The translations under genes were made by a program, and so were the position numbers. A DNA stretch of 64,000 nucleotides from NCBI GenBank assembly GCA_012103505.1, contig WLWP01000001.1:2046001-2110000 (forward strand). The letters run 5' to 3'. The notes under the pieces are model-generated. The model was not told the origin of the DNA and did not search any database. It worked only from the letters and a program-made list of their open reading frames with translations. The stretch comes from Pseudomonadales bacterium (GTDB taxonomy: Bacteria > Pseudomonadota > Gammaproteobacteria > Pseudomonadales > Azotimanducaceae). How positions within the stretch are numbered: position 1 is the stretch's first letter; each line of letters begins with the position of its first letter. Shown piece after piece: positions 17,828 to 25,746 of this stretch.

Positions 17828-18697
17828 TCAGTCAATAACAGTCGCGCCGTCTTCCGGCACGACGGTGTTTTCAATATAGCCCAGCTTCTCTATCTCAACC
17901 CGCACGACATCCCCGGCTTTCATGAACGAACGCGGTTTCATCGCAATACCAACGCCACTGGGCGTCCCCATGAACAAAACATCACCAACATCGAGCGTAA
18001 ACGATTGACTAAGGTGCGCTATCGCATCGAAGCAATCAAAGATCAGGTGTTTCGTATTCGAACTCTGGCGCTCTTCACCGTTAACTGTGCAGCGAATATC
18101 CAAATTATGCGGGTTGCCGACTTCGTCGGGGGTAACCAACCAAGGGCCCATCGGGCCGTGTGTATCGAACGACTTACCTATTTGAAAAGTCGGCACCCGA
18201 ATTTGCCAATCGCGTACGCTGACATCATTGCCACAGAAGTATCCACCGATGACTTCATGCGCGCGGTCTACAGGTACATGCTTGCAGCGCTTGCTGATAA
18301 CTAGACATAGCTCCGCTTCGTAATCTAATTTGTCAGAGACAACCGGGAGGTTGATGTCCGCGTATGGACCATTGGCACAGTTTCTTTGCTTGTTAAACCA
18401 CATCTGAAACTCCGGCGTCTTAGAACCAGTTTCTTCAATGTGATCACTGTAGTTGAGCCCGATAGCGAGAATCTTACCCGGTAAGGGTATGGGGGCTTGC
18501 AAGATAACCGACGATAGCGGCAGACCCGTCTTGCCTGCTGTAGCACTTGATATCGCGTCATTGTCGACCCCGCCAGCAAGTAGAGACATCATATCTCCCT
18601 CGATACCGTTCGCAGCGAGCGAGACAATTTCATCATTTCGTACAAGGCCCACGCCTGGACTCGGATCATCCGAGGTTGAATAGGTTGCTAGTTTCAT
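17828..18697 (-). CDS. Fumarylacetoacetate hydrolase (FAH)-family protein
   Basis: A 289-residue FAH-fold enzyme. It contains ILAIGLNYSDHIEETG, the metal-binding acidic residues in LDYEAELCLVIS, GYFCGNDVSVRDWQ, the substrate-loop K-S-F-D-T-H-G-P-M-G-P-W segment, and the closing GDVLFMGTPSGVG. These enzymes hydrolyse C-C bonds of ring-cleavage products, hydrate 2-oxo-enoates or decarboxylate oxaloacetate. Its location beside two aromatic hydroxylases and a VOC dioxygenase supports a ring-fission product as substrate (inference). It starts at an ATG with an AAAAGGA site and lies downstream of the TetR gene on the same strand. Confidence 0.88.
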   Translation of the reverse strand: MKLATYSTSDDPSPGVGLVRNDEIVSLAANGIEGDMMSLLAGGVDNDAISSATAGKTGLPLSSVILQAPIPLPGKILAIGLNYSDHIEETGSKTPEFQMWFNKQRNCANGPYADINLPVVSDKLDYEAELCLVISKRCKHVPVDRAHEVIGGYFCGNDVSVRDWQIRVPTFQIGKSFDTHGPMGPWLVTPDEVGNPHNLDIRCTVNGEERQSSNTKHLIFDCFDAIAHLSQSFTLDVGDVLFMGTPSGVGIAMKPRSFMKAGDVVRVEIEKLGYIENTVVPEDGATVID

Positions 18698-18754
18698 CGC
18701 AGTTTCCTTTTGGTTGTATTAGTTGTTATCGGTCTGGAGATCGGTGGATGCCGG

Positions 18755-19426
18755 TTAAAGCAGCGGTGGCAGAGGCTGTCTAGCCAGTGTTTGCGCCTCA
18801 TCCGTTTCGAGACCAACGCTGCGGAGAAACATTTCCGCAATTTGGTCAATCGATCGATCGGGATCCGATGAGTTAAAGCTCGCGAGTAAGCCATTAACAA
18901 ACCCACCTAGTAGAAAACTCGATGCAGTGCCTAATTCAGGGACACTAAACCGCCCAGATTTGAGACCAACTCTTATGTCTCGAGTCCCAAACCGACCAAT
19001 CGCGTGCCGCATGTCTTCTACGGGTACGCCGGAATGTTGTAGCAACCATCGCCAAAGCGGATCGGCAGAAATGGCTCTTGCCATGTAACGAGTCGAACTA
19101 GCGAGTACAACAGCCGGATCCTCCCCATCAGCAAATTGCCGTTGAACAATCTCATCCCAGCGGATGGCTTCACGCTCGATAATTGGAATTAGGACTTCGA
19201 ACTTTGACTTAAAGTGTAAGTAGAACGTGCCGTGGCCGACGTCGGCTGCTTCTGTCATGTCCTGAATAGTGACTTCATCAACAGGCCGGGATCGCAGTAA
19301 GACCTCAGCTTCACGAATGATGCGTTCACGGGTATCGCGGCGTTTGCGGTCAACACGCGAAAGTTGCTCGGGCTTATCCTCCACCGCAGTGGTCGCTGTA
19401 TCGGCAGTTGGACTCGGTCTCGGCAT
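18755..19426 (-). CDS. TetR-family transcriptional regulator
   Basis: A 223-residue TetR protein with a proline/threonine-rich N-terminal extension of about 25 residues before the DNA-binding domain (RERIIREAEVLLRSRPVDEVTIQDM, split by helix turns, then AADVGHGTFYLHFKSK). The ligand domain is helical without a recognisable effector site. It is divergent from the flavin hydroxylase at 19487, and the 60-bp space between them holds two TGACT-x2-AGTCA sites. It therefore probably represses both its own gene with the downstream FAH gene and the hydroxylase/VOC genes until an aromatic inducer binds (inference). Confidence 0.88.
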   Translation of the reverse strand: MPRPSPTADTATTAVEDKPEQLSRVDRKRRDTRERIIREAEVLLRSRPVDEVTIQDMTEAADVGHGTFYLHFKSKFEVLIPIIEREAIRWDEIVQRQFADGEDPAVVLASSTRYMARAISADPLWRWLLQHSGVPVEDMRHAIGRFGTRDIRVGLKSGRFSVPELGTASSFLLGGFVNGLLASFNSSDPDRSIDQIAEMFLRSVGLETDEAQTLARQPLPPLL

Positions 19427-19455
19427 CTAATACGCCCTCGCACTTTTCTTTTGAC

Positions 19456-19467
19456 TGACTCGAGTCA
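19456..19467. promoter_or_regulatory. TetR operator candidate, site 1
   Basis: TGACTCGAGTCA is a perfect 12-bp palindrome in the divergent region between the TetR gene and the flavin hydroxylase. Together with a second site centred 32 bp away, three helical turns, it looks like a pair of dimer-binding sites for the adjacent regulator. Confidence 0.65.
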
Positions 19468-19486
19468 ATAATGGTACCTTCCAAAA

Positions 19487-21094
19487 ATGACTGAAGTCAA
19501 TAAATTAAACACTACCCCCGCCGCTGCCACCTATGACCTAGTTATCGTGGGTCTTGGCCCCGTCGGTTGCACAGCTGCGATCCTCTGTGCAGAGGCAGGT
19601 TTAAAGGTAGCAGCCATAGAGCGAGACGCCGAAGTCTACAAACTACCGCGTGCCGTCAAGCTTGATGGCGAAATTCTTCGTGCATTTCAGGCCATTGCGC
19701 GTGGCCATGCTGTTGACGAGTTGATGCAGACCGTTCGAGAAGGCGAACGCGCTGGGTTCGCAAACTCGCGCCGTGAGTGGTTGTTTGGGCACGAAATGAA
19801 GGCATTTGGTACCGATGGATGGCAACCGAGCAATATGTTTGATCAGCCCGAGTTCGAACGCTATTTGCGAGAGGAAGCCCTCGATCACCCTAACGTCACC
19901 TCGTTCATCGGCTACGCCGCGACAGACATTACAAACCGTACAGACGAAGTATCGGTAGTCGTTAACTCCGACTCCGAACAAACGTATGCTATCAGCGCCC
20001 GCTTCCTGCTCGGAACCGATGGCGCCGCCAGCTTTGTCCGAAAATCCATAGGCGCAGGCTGGCAAGACCTGGGTTACAACGTCGATTGGCTTGTCGTGGA
20101 CGTCACAACAAAGCCAGGTCACACGTTAGGCATGGACACATTACAAGTTTGTGATCCAGACCGAATCGTTAGTTACATTTGTACCAAAGATCCGTACCGC
20201 CGTTGGGAATTCAAGATGCTCCCCGGCGAAACGCGCGAGGAGATGTTAGACGAAGACCGGATAACGTCGCTGATAGACCAATGGACACCTCGGGGAACAT
20301 ACGAAATACGTCGGGCGGCTGTTTATCAATTTCACGCAGCCACCGCAGATCGTTGGCAAAGTGGCAACGTTTTCATCGGTGGGGACGCGGCTCACCAAAC
20401 CCCGCCGTTCATCGGGCAAGGGATGAACTCTGGTCTTCGCGACGTCATAAATTTAGCGTGGAAGCTGCAACTCGTCATCCGCGGAGTGTGCAATGTCGAA
20501 CTCCTGCAAAGTTACGAAGCGGAGAGGAACGCCCACTCCCACGATCTTGTTGATTGGGCAGTTTCTGTCGGAAAATTGATGGAACACACAGCCGATGTCG
20601 AGCAAGCCGCACGGCAAGGTTTACCCGCACCTGAAACACCCGCCGCCCTGCGCTCTTCGGGTTACGGACAGGGAAGAAGCCTACCGCCCCTTCGAGACGG
20701 CGTCATTCTCGTAGATCAGGTGGGCGAAGGCAGTTCGACTGGACATCTGTTCGCCCAGCCGGAGGTAACAGTGGCGGATGGAAGTCCGCAGAAACTCGAT
20801 GACCTACTGGGTAACGGGTTCGCCTTAGTCTTACAGTCGGAGGTCTTGCAATCGGAACACACTAACTTGTCAGTTCGAAGTCGGGAAATCCTTGATCTAC
20901 TGGGTGCACAGATCGTATCCCTAGAAAACCTAACCGTGACCCGCGGCCGGTTAGATCGTTTGTTCAAAAATTTCGATGCAGCACTGATTCGACCAGACCG
21001 AGTTGTCTTTGGTCATACGGACCAGACGCATAGCGTTGATGACTTGGTCCAAGCGCTTGCCACTTCCTTACACTTAGCTAACCCGTTAGCATAA
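19487..21094 (+). CDS. FAD-dependent aromatic hydroxylase (MhpA-like), paralogue 2
   Basis: A 535-residue flavoprotein hydroxylase. After a short polar N-terminus it shows GLGPVG at residues 22-27, the conserved KLPRAVKLDGEI segment, the second FAD motif GGDAAHQTPPFIGQGMNSG with its GD at 299-300, and the thioredoxin-like tail ALIRPDRVVFG. This organisation is that of 3-(3-hydroxyphenyl)propionate hydroxylase and resorcinol or phenol hydroxylases, which make catechol-type rings for extradiol cleavage. A VOC-family protein follows 35 bp downstream, in line with that role. The ATG overlaps operator-like site 2, so repression could block both transcription and ribosome access. Confidence 0.9.
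   Translation: MTEVNKLNTTPAAATYDLVIVGLGPVGCTAAILCAEAGLKVAAIERDAEVYKLPRAVKLDGEILRAFQAIARGHAVDELMQTVREGERAGFANSRREWLFGHEMKAFGTDGWQPSNMFDQPEFERYLREEALDHPNVTSFIGYAATDITNRTDEVSVVVNSDSEQTYAISARFLLGTDGAASFVRKSIGAGWQDLGYNVDWLVVDVTTKPGHTLGMDTLQVCDPDRIVSYICTKDPYRRWEFKMLPGETREEMLDEDRITSLIDQWTPRGTYEIRRAAVYQFHAATADRWQSGNVFIGGDAAHQTPPFIGQGMNSGLRDVINLAWKLQLVIRGVCNVELLQSYEAERNAHSHDLVDWAVSVGKLMEHTADVEQAARQGLPAPETPAALRSSGYGQGRSLPPLRDGVILVDQVGEGSSTGHLFAQPEVTVADGSPQKLDDLLGNGFALVLQSEVLQSEHTNLSVRSREILDLLGAQIVSLENLTVTRGRLDRLFKNFDAALIRPDRVVFGHTDQTHSVDDLVQALATSLHLANPLA
19488..19499. promoter_or_regulatory. TetR operator candidate, site 2 (overlaps start codon)
   Basis: TGACTGAAGTCA repeats the half-sites of the perfect palindrome at 19456-19467, with only the centre differing. 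It begins at the second base of the hydroxylase ATG, so the operator would lie within the first codons of the gene. Confidence 0.5.
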
Positions 21095-21129
21095 ATTATC
21101 GATACGCTCAGATACCTTGGAGAAAAACC

Positions 21130-21654
21130 ATGCAATTAAGTTGGTCACACGTAGTTTTGAACGTCAGAGACACCGAAAAGATCTTGGATTTCTATACCGA
21201 AACGCTTGGCTTCTCAGTCAGTGAACGCGGTCCGCTTGCGGAGAACGGTCCGGAAATTGTCTTCCTAAGCCAAGATGCCGACGAACATCACCAACTTGCA
21301 GTCGTGAACACCAGAAAGGATGAAGACCCTTCTAACTCACTGAACCACTTAGCGTTTCGGGTGGGTTCGTTCGACGAAGTCAAAACCGTCAAAGAAAAGC
21401 TCGAAGCCGCGGACACGAAATACCGACCCCTATCACATGGCAATACCCTATCTTTGTATTTTGCCGATCCCGAAGGCAATGGTTTAGAAGTCTTCTGGGA
21501 TACCCCATGGCATGTCTCCCAACCCGAGGGGGCAATCTGGGATGCGAACCTTGATGAAGAACAGGCACTCGCCTGGGTTGAGGAGACCTTTAAACAGAGG
21601 CCGGTATTCGTGAAACGTGAAGACGCTGACTCTGAATTTGTTAACCGACCCTAG
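21130..21654 (+). CDS. VOC-superfamily protein (glyoxalase/extradiol dioxygenase type)
   Basis: A 174-residue vicinal-oxygen-chelate protein. It begins LSWSHVVLNVRDTEKILDFY, where the histidine is the first metal ligand, contains DEHHQLAVVN and SLNHLAFRVGSFDEV in the middle, and ends the fold with SLYFADPEGNGLEVFWD, whose final Glu is the third ligand. Metal ligands of the catechol-2,3-dioxygenase type are therefore present. With its hydroxylase partner 35 bp upstream it probably cleaves the dihydroxylated ring, although single-module VOC proteins can also be isomerases or lyases. It has a GGAG ribosome-binding site and ends 5 bp from a convergent SDR. Confidence 0.85.
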   Translation: MQLSWSHVVLNVRDTEKILDFYTETLGFSVSERGPLAENGPEIVFLSQDADEHHQLAVVNTRKDEDPSNSLNHLAFRVGSFDEVKTVKEKLEAADTKYRPLSHGNTLSLYFADPEGNGLEVFWDTPWHVSQPEGAIWDANLDEEQALAWVEETFKQRPVFVKREDADSEFVNRP

Positions 21655-21659
21655 ACTAG

Positions 21660-22436
21660 TCAACCCATTCTCATGCCACCAGAAATCGTGATCGTCTGGC
21701 CCGTCATGCCATCCGATTCAGCGCTCGCCAAGTAGATCGCGAGATTGGCGATTTCATCGGGCTGCATAAAGCGACCCATAGGAATCCTCGCATACGTCGC
21801 TGTCTTCAGTTGATCCAAGCTGATGCCAGCGGCATCGGCATGGACTTCAAAGTTCTGAAACATATCCGTCTCGACCATACCTGGACAAATCGTATTGACG
21901 TTGATGCCATGTGGTCCCGTTTCCAGGGCAACACATTTACTCATCCCCACCACTGCGTGTTTAGTCGTGTTGTACGCGGCCTGATTCAGGCTCTCCCACT
22001 TGCCCGCAGTCGAGGAAATGTTAACGATCTTGCCGTGGCCACGCGCTTTCATATGGGTCACTGCCTTTTGCATCAACGTAAACACCGCGTAGACATTAAC
22101 TTTCATCAATCGATCCAAATCATCTAAGGCGTATTGCTCAAACGGCTTGCCGTCATAAATACCCGCGTTGTTAACAAGTATGTCCAACCCGCCACTTGCC
22201 TTAGCTGCTTGATCGAACAAGCTGACTACCTCCTGCTCATTGGCTAGGTTGGCTGCGACACACTCGACCGTTATACCTTGCGCCCGAACTGCTTCGGCCA
22301 ACTCTTGTAAACCGTCTACACTGGTCGCCGAGATAACGAGCGAAGCACCCTCCTGCGCATACGCTTCAGCGATCGCCCTGCCTATGCCACGACTTGCGCC
22401 AGTAATCAAAGCCGTTTTGCCTTCTAACCTACCCAT
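21660..22436 (-). CDS. SDR-family oxidoreductase
   Basis: A classical SDR of 258 residues: TGASRGIGRAIA near the N-terminus, NNAGIY, the catalytic Ser in VNISSTAGKW, the YNTTK (Tyr-x3-Lys) active site, PGMVETDM and a C-terminal TGQTITISGGMRMG. It resembles 3-hydroxybutyrate dehydrogenase and cyclitol/sugar dehydrogenases. I choose the ATG at 22436, preceded by a purine-rich GAGAGGGA site; the frame extends 32 codons further upstream, but that part would cover the shared promoter with the OsmC gene. It is divergent from the OsmC selenoprotein candidate and convergent with the VOC gene. Confidence 0.9.
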   Translation of the reverse strand: MGRLEGKTALITGASRGIGRAIAEAYAQEGASLVISATSVDGLQELAEAVRAQGITVECVAANLANEQEVVSLFDQAAKASGGLDILVNNAGIYDGKPFEQYALDDLDRLMKVNVYAVFTLMQKAVTHMKARGHGKIVNISSTAGKWESLNQAAYNTTKHAVVGMSKCVALETGPHGINVNTICPGMVETDMFQNFEVHADAAGISLDQLKTATYARIPMGRFMQPDEIANLAIYLASAESDGMTGQTITISGGMRMG

Positions 22437-22479
22437 CTTGTTTCCCTCTCTCTTGTTCTTTTTTGTGTTTGTCCATATG

Positions 22480-22500
22480 GCCCATTGAATCTCAATTGGC
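22480..22500. promoter_or_regulatory. Near-perfect palindrome in SDR/OsmC divergent promoter
   Basis: The half-sites GCC-x-ATTGA and TCAAT-x-GGC face each other across an ATC centre, a 21-bp inverted repeat with one mismatched pair. It sits 44 bp upstream of the SDR start and 36 bp upstream of the OsmC start. It is a good operator candidate for an unknown regulator shared by the two genes. Confidence 0.5.
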
Positions 22501-22535
22501 GTAAAGTGCCTAGCATCAGCAACCAAGGACATTCT

Positions 22536-23039
22536 ATGAGTAACAACGAATCTCCATTTCAGGTCACACCTGTCGAGGCCGGGTTTCAGGTCTCATTTGA
22601 AGTGCGAACCGTTAAAAGCCAAAGACAAACTAAGAAAGCGCAATTTGATAAGTTTGAGATCATTTGTGACGAAGGTCAGAACATGGGAGGCGACAACTCC
22701 GCGCCACCCCCTTTGGCTTACTTCGCCTCGTCGGTCGCGTTCTGACTACTTACACAAATCGCTCGGTCGAGCGAAGCAAGAAAGATCGAACTAGGCGATG
22801 TGTCCATGACAGTCACACCCAGATTCGAACAAACCGGATCGATCGGAGCCGATACGATTCAAAGTCGCTTGATTGACGTAGAAACATCCTTGCACATTGA
22901 ATCATCAGCACCTACCGACGAAATTGCCAAACTCGTCGCAACTGCAGAACGAATGTGTTTCTTGATGGATGCCATACGAGAGCCTCACGAAGTTCGAAAC
23001 ACAACCTCACTCAATGGCAAGCCGCTTGCTGGGATCTAG
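22536..23039 (+). CDS. OsmC-family peroxiredoxin, probable selenoprotein (UGA = Sec at residue 70)
   Basis: Read through one in-frame TGA (22743-22745), this gene encodes 167 residues of OsmC family. Residues 1-69 end in GQNMGGDNSAPPPLAYFASSVAF, shown here in two parts: GQNMGGDNSAPPPLAY and FASSVAF. The TGA then falls exactly where OsmC proteins have their first reactive cysteine. The second conserved cysteine is present in ATAERMCFLMDAIRE near residue 147. Frame and homology continue on both sides with no gap. The TGA is followed by C, a weak stop context, and by a hairpin that fits a bacterial SECIS. An AAGGA site lies 6 bp before the ATG. OsmC proteins reduce organic hydroperoxides; a selenol would make a faster peroxidase. 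The alternative, a TGT/TGC-to-TGA nonsense mutation, explains neither the hairpin nor the exact position. Confidence 0.82.
22743..22780 (+). promoter_or_regulatory. Candidate bacterial SECIS element
   Basis: Starting 13 nt after the TGA, TCGCTC (22759-22764) and GAGCGA (22769-22774) form a perfect 6-bp stem closing a GGTC loop (22765-22768). The loop starts 19 nt after the stop codon and has G at its first positions. Known bacterial SECIS elements place a small G-containing apical loop about 16-37 nt after UGA; the E. coli fdhF loop also contains GGUC. A weak lower helix CTT/AAG (22749-22751 with 22778-22780) extends it across an internal loop. Confidence 0.72.
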
Positions 23040-23053
23040 AACTTCAAGAGGAG

Positions 23054-23082
23054 GCCTTAGTGTATCGCGGACAAACTAAGGC
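23054..23082. terminator. Hairpin between convergent OsmC and VOC genes
   Basis: Perfect 8-bp arms GCCTTAGT (23054-23061) and ACTAAGGC (23075-23082) enclose a 13-nt loop, 15 bp after the OsmC stop and 29 bp from the end of the convergent VOC gene. There is no T run on either side, so terminator function is only suggested by position. Confidence 0.35.
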
Positions 23083-23110
23083 TCCAGCTATCCAAATATG
23101 CGTGAATGCT

Positions 23111-24040
23111 CTATTGGGAAGCATTCCAACCAGTGATCAACTCTTCCATATCGGGTACCTTGAAGAATAGTTCTGGCTGATCTTTTTCACCCCAGATAGA
23201 CCAAGCATCGGTCATGTCCCAATCATCCTTTACCACCCAAGCCTCATCGTTTTCGATGTTGTCCATATCGGCAAAGAACTCAAAAAACGTACCGCTGGGA
23301 TCTTTCATGTACCAGAAGATGTTGCCACCAATCTGATGCCTACCTGGACCTGCGACTTGATTCTCTTCACCATGCGCACGCAAATAGAGCGTTGCTCCAC
23401 GCATCACAGCGTCGAAGTCATCTTGCTCCATGGCATAGTGGTTTAAATAGGGAACGGGACCCGGAGTAACCAACAAATTGTGATGGTCCCGCGAACATCG
23501 CATGAACGTCGCCATGCCTCCACCAATCGTATCCGACGCACGAAAGCCTAACGCTAGACATAACTCCGTGGTTTTTTGCGGATCTGGACTACCCACCACC
23601 ACATGACCCAGCCGTCTCGGCGTGCGAGGACTCGGTTCTATTAGCACTTGTGCTCGCTCCCCAACACGCTCTCGATTCCCCGGGGAGTTTAGCGCTCGCC
23701 GCGGCATCGTTATTTGATCAGTTACCGCTGAGGGCGCGACCACGTAGCGCCACTTGTTTATCGGGTCTGTGACCTGCAGTTCGCCATTGCTGTGCTCGTA
23801 GGCAACACCGATGGCATCTAGTCTGGTTTTGATCGCTGCAATGTCAGCATCATCTTCACAAGCCATCTTTATGTACTTGAGTTGACGATAGCTCGCCTCT
23901 GAAACCTTGATCTGACCCGGGTAAGTTTCACTCCCCCACACACCTTTCTCGCCCGTAAATCCTATCTCCTGATAAAAATCATCCAGCGTAGAAGGATCCG
24001 GCACTCCAACTTCCATTTCCATCAATCTATGTAACGCCAT
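23111..24040 (-). CDS. Two-domain VOC extradiol-dioxygenase-like protein
   Basis: A 309-residue VOC protein with two tandem modules, the size and layout of 2,3-dihydroxybiphenyl-type extradiol dioxygenases. The C-terminal module starts with RRLGHVVVGSPDP, whose His is the first metal ligand, continues with LNHYAMEQDDFD (second His) and ends GTFFEFFADMD, whose Glu is the third. The N-terminal module lacks this set and is structural. It lies upstream of nothing on its strand except the Baeyer-Villiger gene, which ends 77 bp before its start, so both may be on one transcript. A role in ring or ring-derived substrate cleavage is likely; substrate unknown. Confidence 0.83.
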   Translation of the reverse strand: MALHRLMEMEVGVPDPSTLDDFYQEIGFTGEKGVWGSETYPGQIKVSEASYRQLKYIKMACEDDADIAAIKTRLDAIGVAYEHSNGELQVTDPINKWRYVVAPSAVTDQITMPRRALNSPGNRERVGERAQVLIEPSPRTPRRLGHVVVGSPDPQKTTELCLALGFRASDTIGGGMATFMRCSRDHHNLLVTPGPVPYLNHYAMEQDDFDAVMRGATLYLRAHGEENQVAGPGRHQIGGNIFWYMKDPSGTFFEFFADMDNIENDEAWVVKDDWDMTDAWSIWGEKDQPELFFKVPDMEELITGWNASQ

Positions 24041-24117
24041 GGCTATTTCCTTAAAGTAACTATTTCGCGAGTTTCGAATGCAGTCCGCTGAAGAGGATTT
24101 GTAGTTTCCGACTTAAA

Positions 24118-25746
24118 TTAGTTTGCAGCGCGCTCGAAGGCTAACTCCGGAAAACCTTGAGCGACGGATTCTCGGAGTTTGTCGTAATACACGTTGGCGC
24201 CACCGAAATAGATCAGGACGCGCGGATTTTTATTCTCGATGTTGGCACCCATCATCCAGGAATTTACGCGATCACCTTGTGCCATTAAGGTTTGCGCATG
24301 GATTTCCGCCGTTTCAGCCACCCACGCTTCTTCCGCCTCGCGCAACGGCGCACACACACCATACCCTTCGCTCTCCATCTTCTTAATGCAGTCAGTTATC
24401 CAAAGGATATTTTGCTCGATCGAAGTAGGTAGATTTGCAAACGGAGCTTGTGGGCCCGTGATCAAGAACATATTGGGGAAATCGGCAACACACACCCCCA
24501 TGATAGAGGCAGACTCGGTAGCCCATTTTTCCTTGAGGGTTACATCACCTCGGCCGCGTATCGCAACCGCCTCGGGCGCCCCTGTGTACGCTTGAAAGCC
24601 TGTCGCAAGGACGATGATGTCAAATTCGTATTCATCCGCATCGGTGCGAATCCCCTTTTCGGTAATCGCAACGATGGGTTCGCGATCTTTGATATCGACC
24701 AGCTGTACGTTATCTCGGTTATACGCTTCGAAGTAACCGTGATCGAGCGGTGGTCGCTTGGCAAATAACGGGTAGTCCTTCGGTGTCAGGAGGTCAGCGA
24801 GTTCCGGATCATTTACCCGTTCCCTAATTTTTCCTGCGATGAATTCGGAGACCACCTTGTTGGATTCAGCGTTCGATAACAGGTCATCGAATGTCTCAAA
24901 GACAAACCGAAAACTACCTCGAGGCCAATGCTCTTCGAGAATCGCTTGCACCTCATCCGGTGGCGTATCGGCTAAGTTACGACCAACAGGGCTATCAAAT
25001 GCCATCCCGAAAACATGATTACGACACTTAGCAATGATCTCTTCGTAGTTGTCTTTGATCTCCTTTTCCCATTCCGGCGTCATGGGTTTTTGCACTGCGG
25101 GCATCACGAAGTTAGGGGTTCGTTGGAATACCGTAACGTTAGCAGCGGTCTCCGCCATCACCGGCAACATCTGTACTGTAGTTGCACCACAACCAATGAT
25201 CCCAACTCGCTTCCCAGCATAGTCGAGTCCTTCCTGTGGCCAACGAGACGAATGGAAACAAGGTCCCTTAAAGGTATCCACGCCCTTCAAGTCCGGCACG
25301 TTAGGCTCTGAAATCATACCCATGGCACTGATGAAGTACCTGCATGTGCAGGTAGCGCCGTCGGCTGTCGTAACGACCCAAAGTCCGGAATCTTCCTGGA
25401 AGTCAGCACTCACAACTTCGCTATTGAGTTGAATGTGCGGCCACAGATCGCACTTATCGGCGACGAAATGTAGGTAACGATGCGTCTCTTCCCAACCGGG
25501 ATATCGCTCAGACCAACTCCATTCATCCAGTATTTCTTTCGAAAAGGTTAAGCAGTAATAGTAGCCCTCACTGTCGGTCGCAGCCCCTGGATAGCGGTTC
25601 CAAGTCCAGGTACCACCAATGTCTGAGGCGCGATCAAAAACGCGTATCGATAGACCGGCGTCTCGGAGCGAGTGAATTAGGCCCAGACCGGCAAAACCAG
25701 CACCAATGGCTATTACATCGAAATCAGGCTCTTGGGGCGATGCCAT
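24118..25746 (-). CDS. Baeyer-Villiger monooxygenase (flavin-containing)
   Basis: A 542-residue class B flavoprotein monooxygenase. The FAD motif is GAGFAGLG at residues 15-22, the conserved DIGGTWTWNRYPGA follows at about 42-55, the Baeyer-Villiger fingerprint F-x-G-x3-H-x3-W-P appears as FKGPCFHSSRWP at 159-170, and the NADPH-binding motif is GCGATT at 185-190. These enzymes insert oxygen next to a ketone, giving esters or lactones, as in cyclic-ketone, steroid or terpenoid breakdown. With SDRs and hydrolases nearby, an alcohol-ketone-lactone-acid route is plausible (inference). Confidence 0.92.
   Translation of the reverse strand: MASPQEPDFDVIAIGAGFAGLGLIHSLRDAGLSIRVFDRASDIGGTWTWNRYPGAATDSEGYYYCLTFSKEILDEWSWSERYPGWEETHRYLHFVADKCDLWPHIQLNSEVVSADFQEDSGLWVVTTADGATCTCRYFISAMGMISEPNVPDLKGVDTFKGPCFHSSRWPQEGLDYAGKRVGIIGCGATTVQMLPVMAETAANVTVFQRTPNFVMPAVQKPMTPEWEKEIKDNYEEIIAKCRNHVFGMAFDSPVGRNLADTPPDEVQAILEEHWPRGSFRFVFETFDDLLSNAESNKVVSEFIAGKIRERVNDPELADLLTPKDYPLFAKRPPLDHGYFEAYNRDNVQLVDIKDREPIVAITEKGIRTDADEYEFDIIVLATGFQAYTGAPEAVAIRGRGDVTLKEKWATESASIMGVCVADFPNMFLITGPQAPFANLPTSIEQNILWITDCIKKMESEGYGVCAPLREAEEAWVAETAEIHAQTLMAQGDRVNSWMMGANIENKNPRVLIYFGGANVYYDKLRESVAQGFPELAFERAAN

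Follow-up and report, generated by a model that had tools for sequence, protein, structure and literature searches.

Selenoproteins with an OsmC-like domain are known from marine metagenomes. The Sargasso Sea survey of 2005 includes, in the portion consulted, three OsmC-like proteins with a UxxT motif and a predicted SECIS element (PMC1088965), and the GOS survey of 2008 includes the family with the same motif, listing five sequences (PMC2398784). The family is listed again in the excerpts used of PMC9312934 and PMC13188914. A curated NCBIfam model, NF041052 'OsmC-related (seleno)protein' (OsmC_like_Se), already describes it. The Ohr/OsmC thiol peroxidases have the same fold and two redox positions. 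According to the relevant section of PMC5962072, the catalytic triad of Ohr consists of Arg19 (X. fastidiosa Ohr), Glu51 and Cys61, and the activity of YhfA-type OsmC members is unknown.

The stretch of DNA analysed here, 64,000 nucleotides in full and called the window below, contains a gene whose product, judged from the sequence, is very probably an OsmC/Ohr-fold selenoprotein with selenocysteine at residue 70 (Sec70). An open reading frame listing of the window divides it into two separate frames of the same phase, 22485-22745 and 22800-23039. If the TGA at 22743-22745 is read as U, a single frame of 167 amino acids results, running from the ATG at 22536 to the TAG at 23037-23039, with U70 as its sole recoded position. 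The sequence-only reading had proposed that the two apparent frames form one OsmC protein through this TGA and that the following base is C; the joined frame and the base itself agree with both statements. The features of the locus are as follows.

22536-23039, plus strand: OsmC-like gene, probable selenoprotein of 167 amino acids with U70; ATG start, TAG stop; matches to PF02566 and NF041052.
22743-22745, plus strand: in-frame TGA, residue 70, probably read as selenocysteine within a U-L-L-T (UxxT) motif; located by codon comparison with relatives.
22759-22774, plus strand: SECIS-like hairpin TCGCTC-GGTC-GAGCGA with a 6-bp stem; its apical loop lies 19 nt past the UGA.
22956-22958, plus strand: codon TGT for Cys141, the second conserved cysteine and a probable resolving residue; invariant in 13 of 13 sequences.

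Three observations carry the selenoprotein reading: a UGA conserved at the codon of the reactive cysteine in six of six sequences, a full set of selenocysteine genes (selA, selB, selC and selD), and a well-placed SECIS-like hairpin in all six. By description, the Sargasso Sea and GOS proteins share the OsmC domain, the U at the cysteine site and the UxxT motif with the window protein, and the sequence-only reading was right that such proteins appear in marine metagenome surveys (PMC1088965 and PMC2398784). Whereas those members are environmental metagenome sequences, the window gene comes from a near-complete genome that includes selenium machinery. A family first seen in marine metagenomes is thereby placed beside that machinery and could be studied in a defined organism. 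The gene leaves our knowledge of selenocysteine coding unchanged; it is a well-supported example of how standard annotation would divide or truncate such a gene.

As a control for chance, we collected all frames in the window that hold exactly one internal TGA under set length limits. There are 17, and for 6 of them the overlap with other frames stays below half the length. On inspection by eye, only the OsmC gene among these six has a recognisable domain divided by its TGA; the remaining five are tails beyond an ordinary stop or have a false upstream start. Within the window, ARAGORN found no tRNA, an Rfam scan gave no match, and a promoter and terminator scan stayed at chance level, its one terminator-like match being the SECIS-like hairpin read on the minus strand.

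With cysteine typed at residue 70, the protein scores 50.5 bits against the Pfam model OsmC PF02566 (gathering cut-off 27.5). NF041052 matches at 151.3 bits (curated cut-off 95), with 142 of its 144 positions covered. A YcaO-fusion model and two models for Ohr reach 16.7-25.2 bits, far under their cut-offs. The gene is a further member of the known NF041052 family, whose members over the cut-off carry TGA or Cys at one column, and we saw no substantive difference from it; its novelty is low because that model already describes the family. A sequence search of solved structures gave two matches, 3cje (44 bits) and 6mjn (22.9 bits). The former, an OsmC-like protein of Jannaschia, is the closest solved relative by sequence; the stretch GGD-SAPPPLA is common to both proteins, and 3cje has Cys where the window protein would have Sec. 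The TGA residue aligns with a cysteine in both structures and in seven of seven Cys-form relatives over the NF041052 cut-off, which places it at the first conserved cysteine of OsmC proteins, as the sequence-only reading had suggested. An AlphaFold2 model built from 13 window and locus sequences has a moderate mean pLDDT of 70.3 and a weak N-terminal part. When it was compared to the PDB with Foldseek (E <= 0.001), titles naming OsmC, Ohr or osmotic stress were carried by 48 of the best 50 of 61 matches, and two of those 50 are untitled hypothetical proteins. Among the matches listed, the best E value is 4e-8, TM-scores by query length range from 0.42 to 0.54 and rmsd values from 7.5 to 17.6. 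Given these titles and values, we take the predicted OsmC/Ohr fold to be correct and the predicted model to be rough.

To relate the window gene to its relatives, we searched a contig collection, which gave 4 loci, and genome sets of increasing breadth around the genome of the window (G000). Among 40 genomes of the genus, 6 had a match at E 0.001; the only full-length relative beyond G000 is that of G030 (95%), the other four being weak OsmC matches. In the family, 5 of 206 genomes matched at E 1e-15, G000 included, and in the class G000 alone matched among 369. Merging copies (L022 with L029, L033 with L030, L035 with L031) left six distinct sequences with the window gene. All six, with mutual identities of 55-95%, have TGA at the same codon in a frame that is open on both sides. 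One of them, L032, belongs to a record whose title reads Deltaproteobacteria, and the tree output places it in Myxococcota. The earlier note had named random stop positions in relatives as a sign against its proposal; the position is a single fixed codon.

Matches above the NF041052 cut-off occur in 8 of the 206 genomes of the family, of which 5 have the TGA and 3 do not, and in 5 of 398 genomes of the phylum, where G000 has it and the other 4 do not. All seven more distant members that score over the cut-off without TGA have TGC or TGT at this codon. Eight matches below the cut-off were inspected (L046, L047, L078, L079, L082, L099, L027 and L028), and seven carry Cys in this column, L078 having Ser (TCC). 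In an alignment of 13 sequences, neither the Sec/Cys column nor Cys141 varies, so the second cysteine is kept, as had been claimed. The tree unites the Cys forms with support of 99/97 and the Sec forms with weak support of 52/53. Stops in L082 (TAA) and L099 (TGA) hinted at a second Sec-containing OsmC subfamily, which we dropped because the aligned cysteine codon is TGC in both. A distant OsmC match under the family cut-off, G071:C112:7080-7457, holds one TGA; in L099, which resembles it, the TGA lies off the Cys codon. A mobile or phage origin of the window gene found no support: the viral contig collection contained no relative, a DNA-level search of a phage collection gave no match, and plasmid protein matches amounted to 5 records that are 26-36% identical.

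The hairpin starts 13 nt past the UGA and has the loop GGUC. In the excerpt used of PMC13188914, the rules for bacterial SECIS elements (bSECIS) are a stem-loop 16-37 nt after the UGA, a G in the first two loop positions and an MFE <= -7.5. Six of six TGA genes comply, against none of seven Cys genes. A SECIS-like hairpin thus follows the TGA in every TGA-bearing relative, its absence being the other finding that had been named as adverse. We compared each gene with 2000 synonymous recodings, applying the codon usage of six window genes to all 13 sequences. For the six TGA genes, 102 (window), 275, 125, 40, 111 and 171 of 2000 recodings folded as well as the native sequence, and 151 to 249 of 2000 complied with the bSECIS rule by chance (212 for the window stretch). 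Recodings of the Cys genes did so in 4 to 183 of 2000 cases; since these genes would mostly fail the rule anyway, their 0/7 says little. Shuffling a 61-nt segment revealed no excess folding of the window sequence (z -0.28; 75 of 200 shuffles at least as stable).

Across the six TGA sequences, the helix is paired in 97.2% of cells, compared to 33-56% when the pairing is slid by 1-3 columns; L032 has its stem displaced by one base, still with 6 pairs. No compensatory changes, and no change on both sides, were found in the hairpin across the six. Where the residue is the same in all six, an identical codon is commoner within the hairpin (residues 74-80), at 2 of 5 sites, than outside it, at 2 of 56 (p 0.03 in a one-sided Fisher test). 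A count on four sequences gave 4 of 6 and 5 of 67 codons, but L029 and L032 had been left out post hoc and the six-sequence count is preferred. We conclude that the hairpin, weak in any single sequence, is supporting evidence and not proof.

The genome of the window comprises 5,820,554 bases in 21 contigs (99.13% complete, 6.61% contamination). All four selenocysteine genes that the sequence-only reading had asked for are present and score over their curated cut-offs: selB at C6:913803-915629 (401.6 bits; cut-off 242.25), the adjoining selA (541.4 bits; 267.9), selD at C6:905616-906518 (253 bits; 125) and the tRNA-Sec gene selC at C6:913659-913747 (71.7 bits; gathering score 47), which ARAGORN confirms with anticodon tca. 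On contig C6, selA, selB and tRNA-Sec form a group, with selD about 7 kb off. The window lies on the same contig of 4.65 Mb, so contamination is an unlikely source. The selD match forms the C-terminal portion of a 742-amino-acid open frame, in which it is joined to an oxidoreductase-like domain (L018:47-1609; G000:C6 ~905-906.6 kb); TIGR04369 and TIGR03169 also match this fusion frame, under their cut-offs on the piece scanned. In the family, selB occurs in 160 of 206 genomes, including three with the Cys form (G040, G050 and G186). Among the five family genomes that carry the TGA gene, G000, G030 and G069 have both selB and tRNA-Sec.

The other two carriers provide the main result against the selenoprotein reading, as selB and tRNA-Sec were found in neither draft. 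At E 1e-80, no selB was found in G089 or G179, and neither gave a tRNA-Sec; for selA, G089 gave just a fragment on the edge of a contig, and G179 (L034/L100, G179:C46) no match. These drafts, in 550 and 80 contigs, have completeness values of 91% and 96%, and the OsmC gene of G179 begins at base 18 of its contig; gaps or mis-binning may therefore account for the genes not found. Taken at face value, the incomplete machinery fits a dead gene, in which decay or a sequencing error turned a Cys codon, TGC or TGT, into TGA by a single base change. We consider this explanation extremely unlikely, because neither error nor decay would be conserved, and the same TGA recurs in six distinct sequences that span two phyla.

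We hold it equally improbable that the UGA is read by other means, such as a near-cognate tRNA for Trp or Cys, or leaky termination. A C after a stop codon is a leaky termination context, which is found here, and a hairpin that is unexceptional in one sequence (z -0.28) also fits such read-through. The alignment of the TGA with Cys, the classic position for Sec, speaks against it, as do the presence of selA, selB, selC and selD in G000 and the retention of TGA, and not of a sense codon, by close relatives. In addition, the gene in L031 and L032 terminates on TGA as well as carrying one internally at the Sec site. UGA is thus not generally read there, and the inner and the terminal TGA are handled differently.

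If the UGA is decoded as selenocysteine, SelB with GTP and Sec-tRNA(Sec) would bind the hairpin and insert Sec70. Sec70 would next reduce an oxidised substrate by nucleophilic attack of its selenol; an organic hydroperoxide is the likeliest candidate, this substrate step being the least certain. Cys141 could resolve the oxidised selenium, before a cellular thiol returns it to the reduced state. Compared to the Ohr/OsmC thiol peroxidases, the window protein would have Sec in place of the peroxidatic Cys and has Leu in place of the Ohr glutamate: the catalytic Glu, which precedes the peroxidatic Cys by ten residues, corresponds to Leu60 in the 6mjn alignment, and Leu60 is invariant in 13 of 13 sequences. 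This alignment begins at residue 48, and the N-terminal part of the model, where a counterpart of the catalytic Arg19 of Ohr would be sought, is of low confidence. The name 'peroxiredoxin', used in the sequence-only reading, is too strong, as Ohr/OsmC proteins are distinct from Prx and this subgroup is without the Ohr catalytic Glu. Hydroperoxide reduction would thus be the most likely role of the protein, a role that we propose with caution given Leu60 in place of that residue.

A selenoprotein of YhfA-like type could instead perform other thiol or selenol chemistry that serves the surrounding catabolic enzymes. This alternative, which concerns the substrate step only, is a tentative one that we rank as possible: the invariant change of Ohr Glu51 to Leu60 fits it, and YhfA-type members have unknown activity in the cited section of PMC5962072. 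Its genomic context fits as well, since the Pfam-identified neighbours in the window include flavin monooxygenases, a glyoxalase-fold protein, an SDR and an FAA hydrolase, and by eye the ORF lists of relatives show catabolic-looking genes too. The two conserved redox residues in Ohr-like positions argue against it, as do the neighbour genes, which by eye differ outside the genus (L030, L031, L032 and L100). A broader proposal, which we regard as doubtful, is that the Sec-containing OsmC clade of Pseudomonadales-type and Myxococcota genomes has lost the Ohr Glu and uses its selenol for non-hydroperoxide chemistry tied to accompanying genes of oxidative catabolism. Reduction of an organic hydroperoxide by Sec70 is the role that we prefer.

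By Pfam, positions 17828-25746 of the window encode an FAA hydrolase, a TetR regulator, an FAD monooxygenase, a glyoxalase-fold protein, an SDR and an FMO-like monooxygenase, and this cluster looks like a degradation gene island. Downstream of the OsmC gene, the minus strand at 23111-24040 encodes a 309-amino-acid protein that has no Pfam match at E 1e-5 and a close copy beside the OsmC gene in L029. This locus, from the same genus, retains the downstream pair formed in the window by 23111-24040 and 24118-25746.
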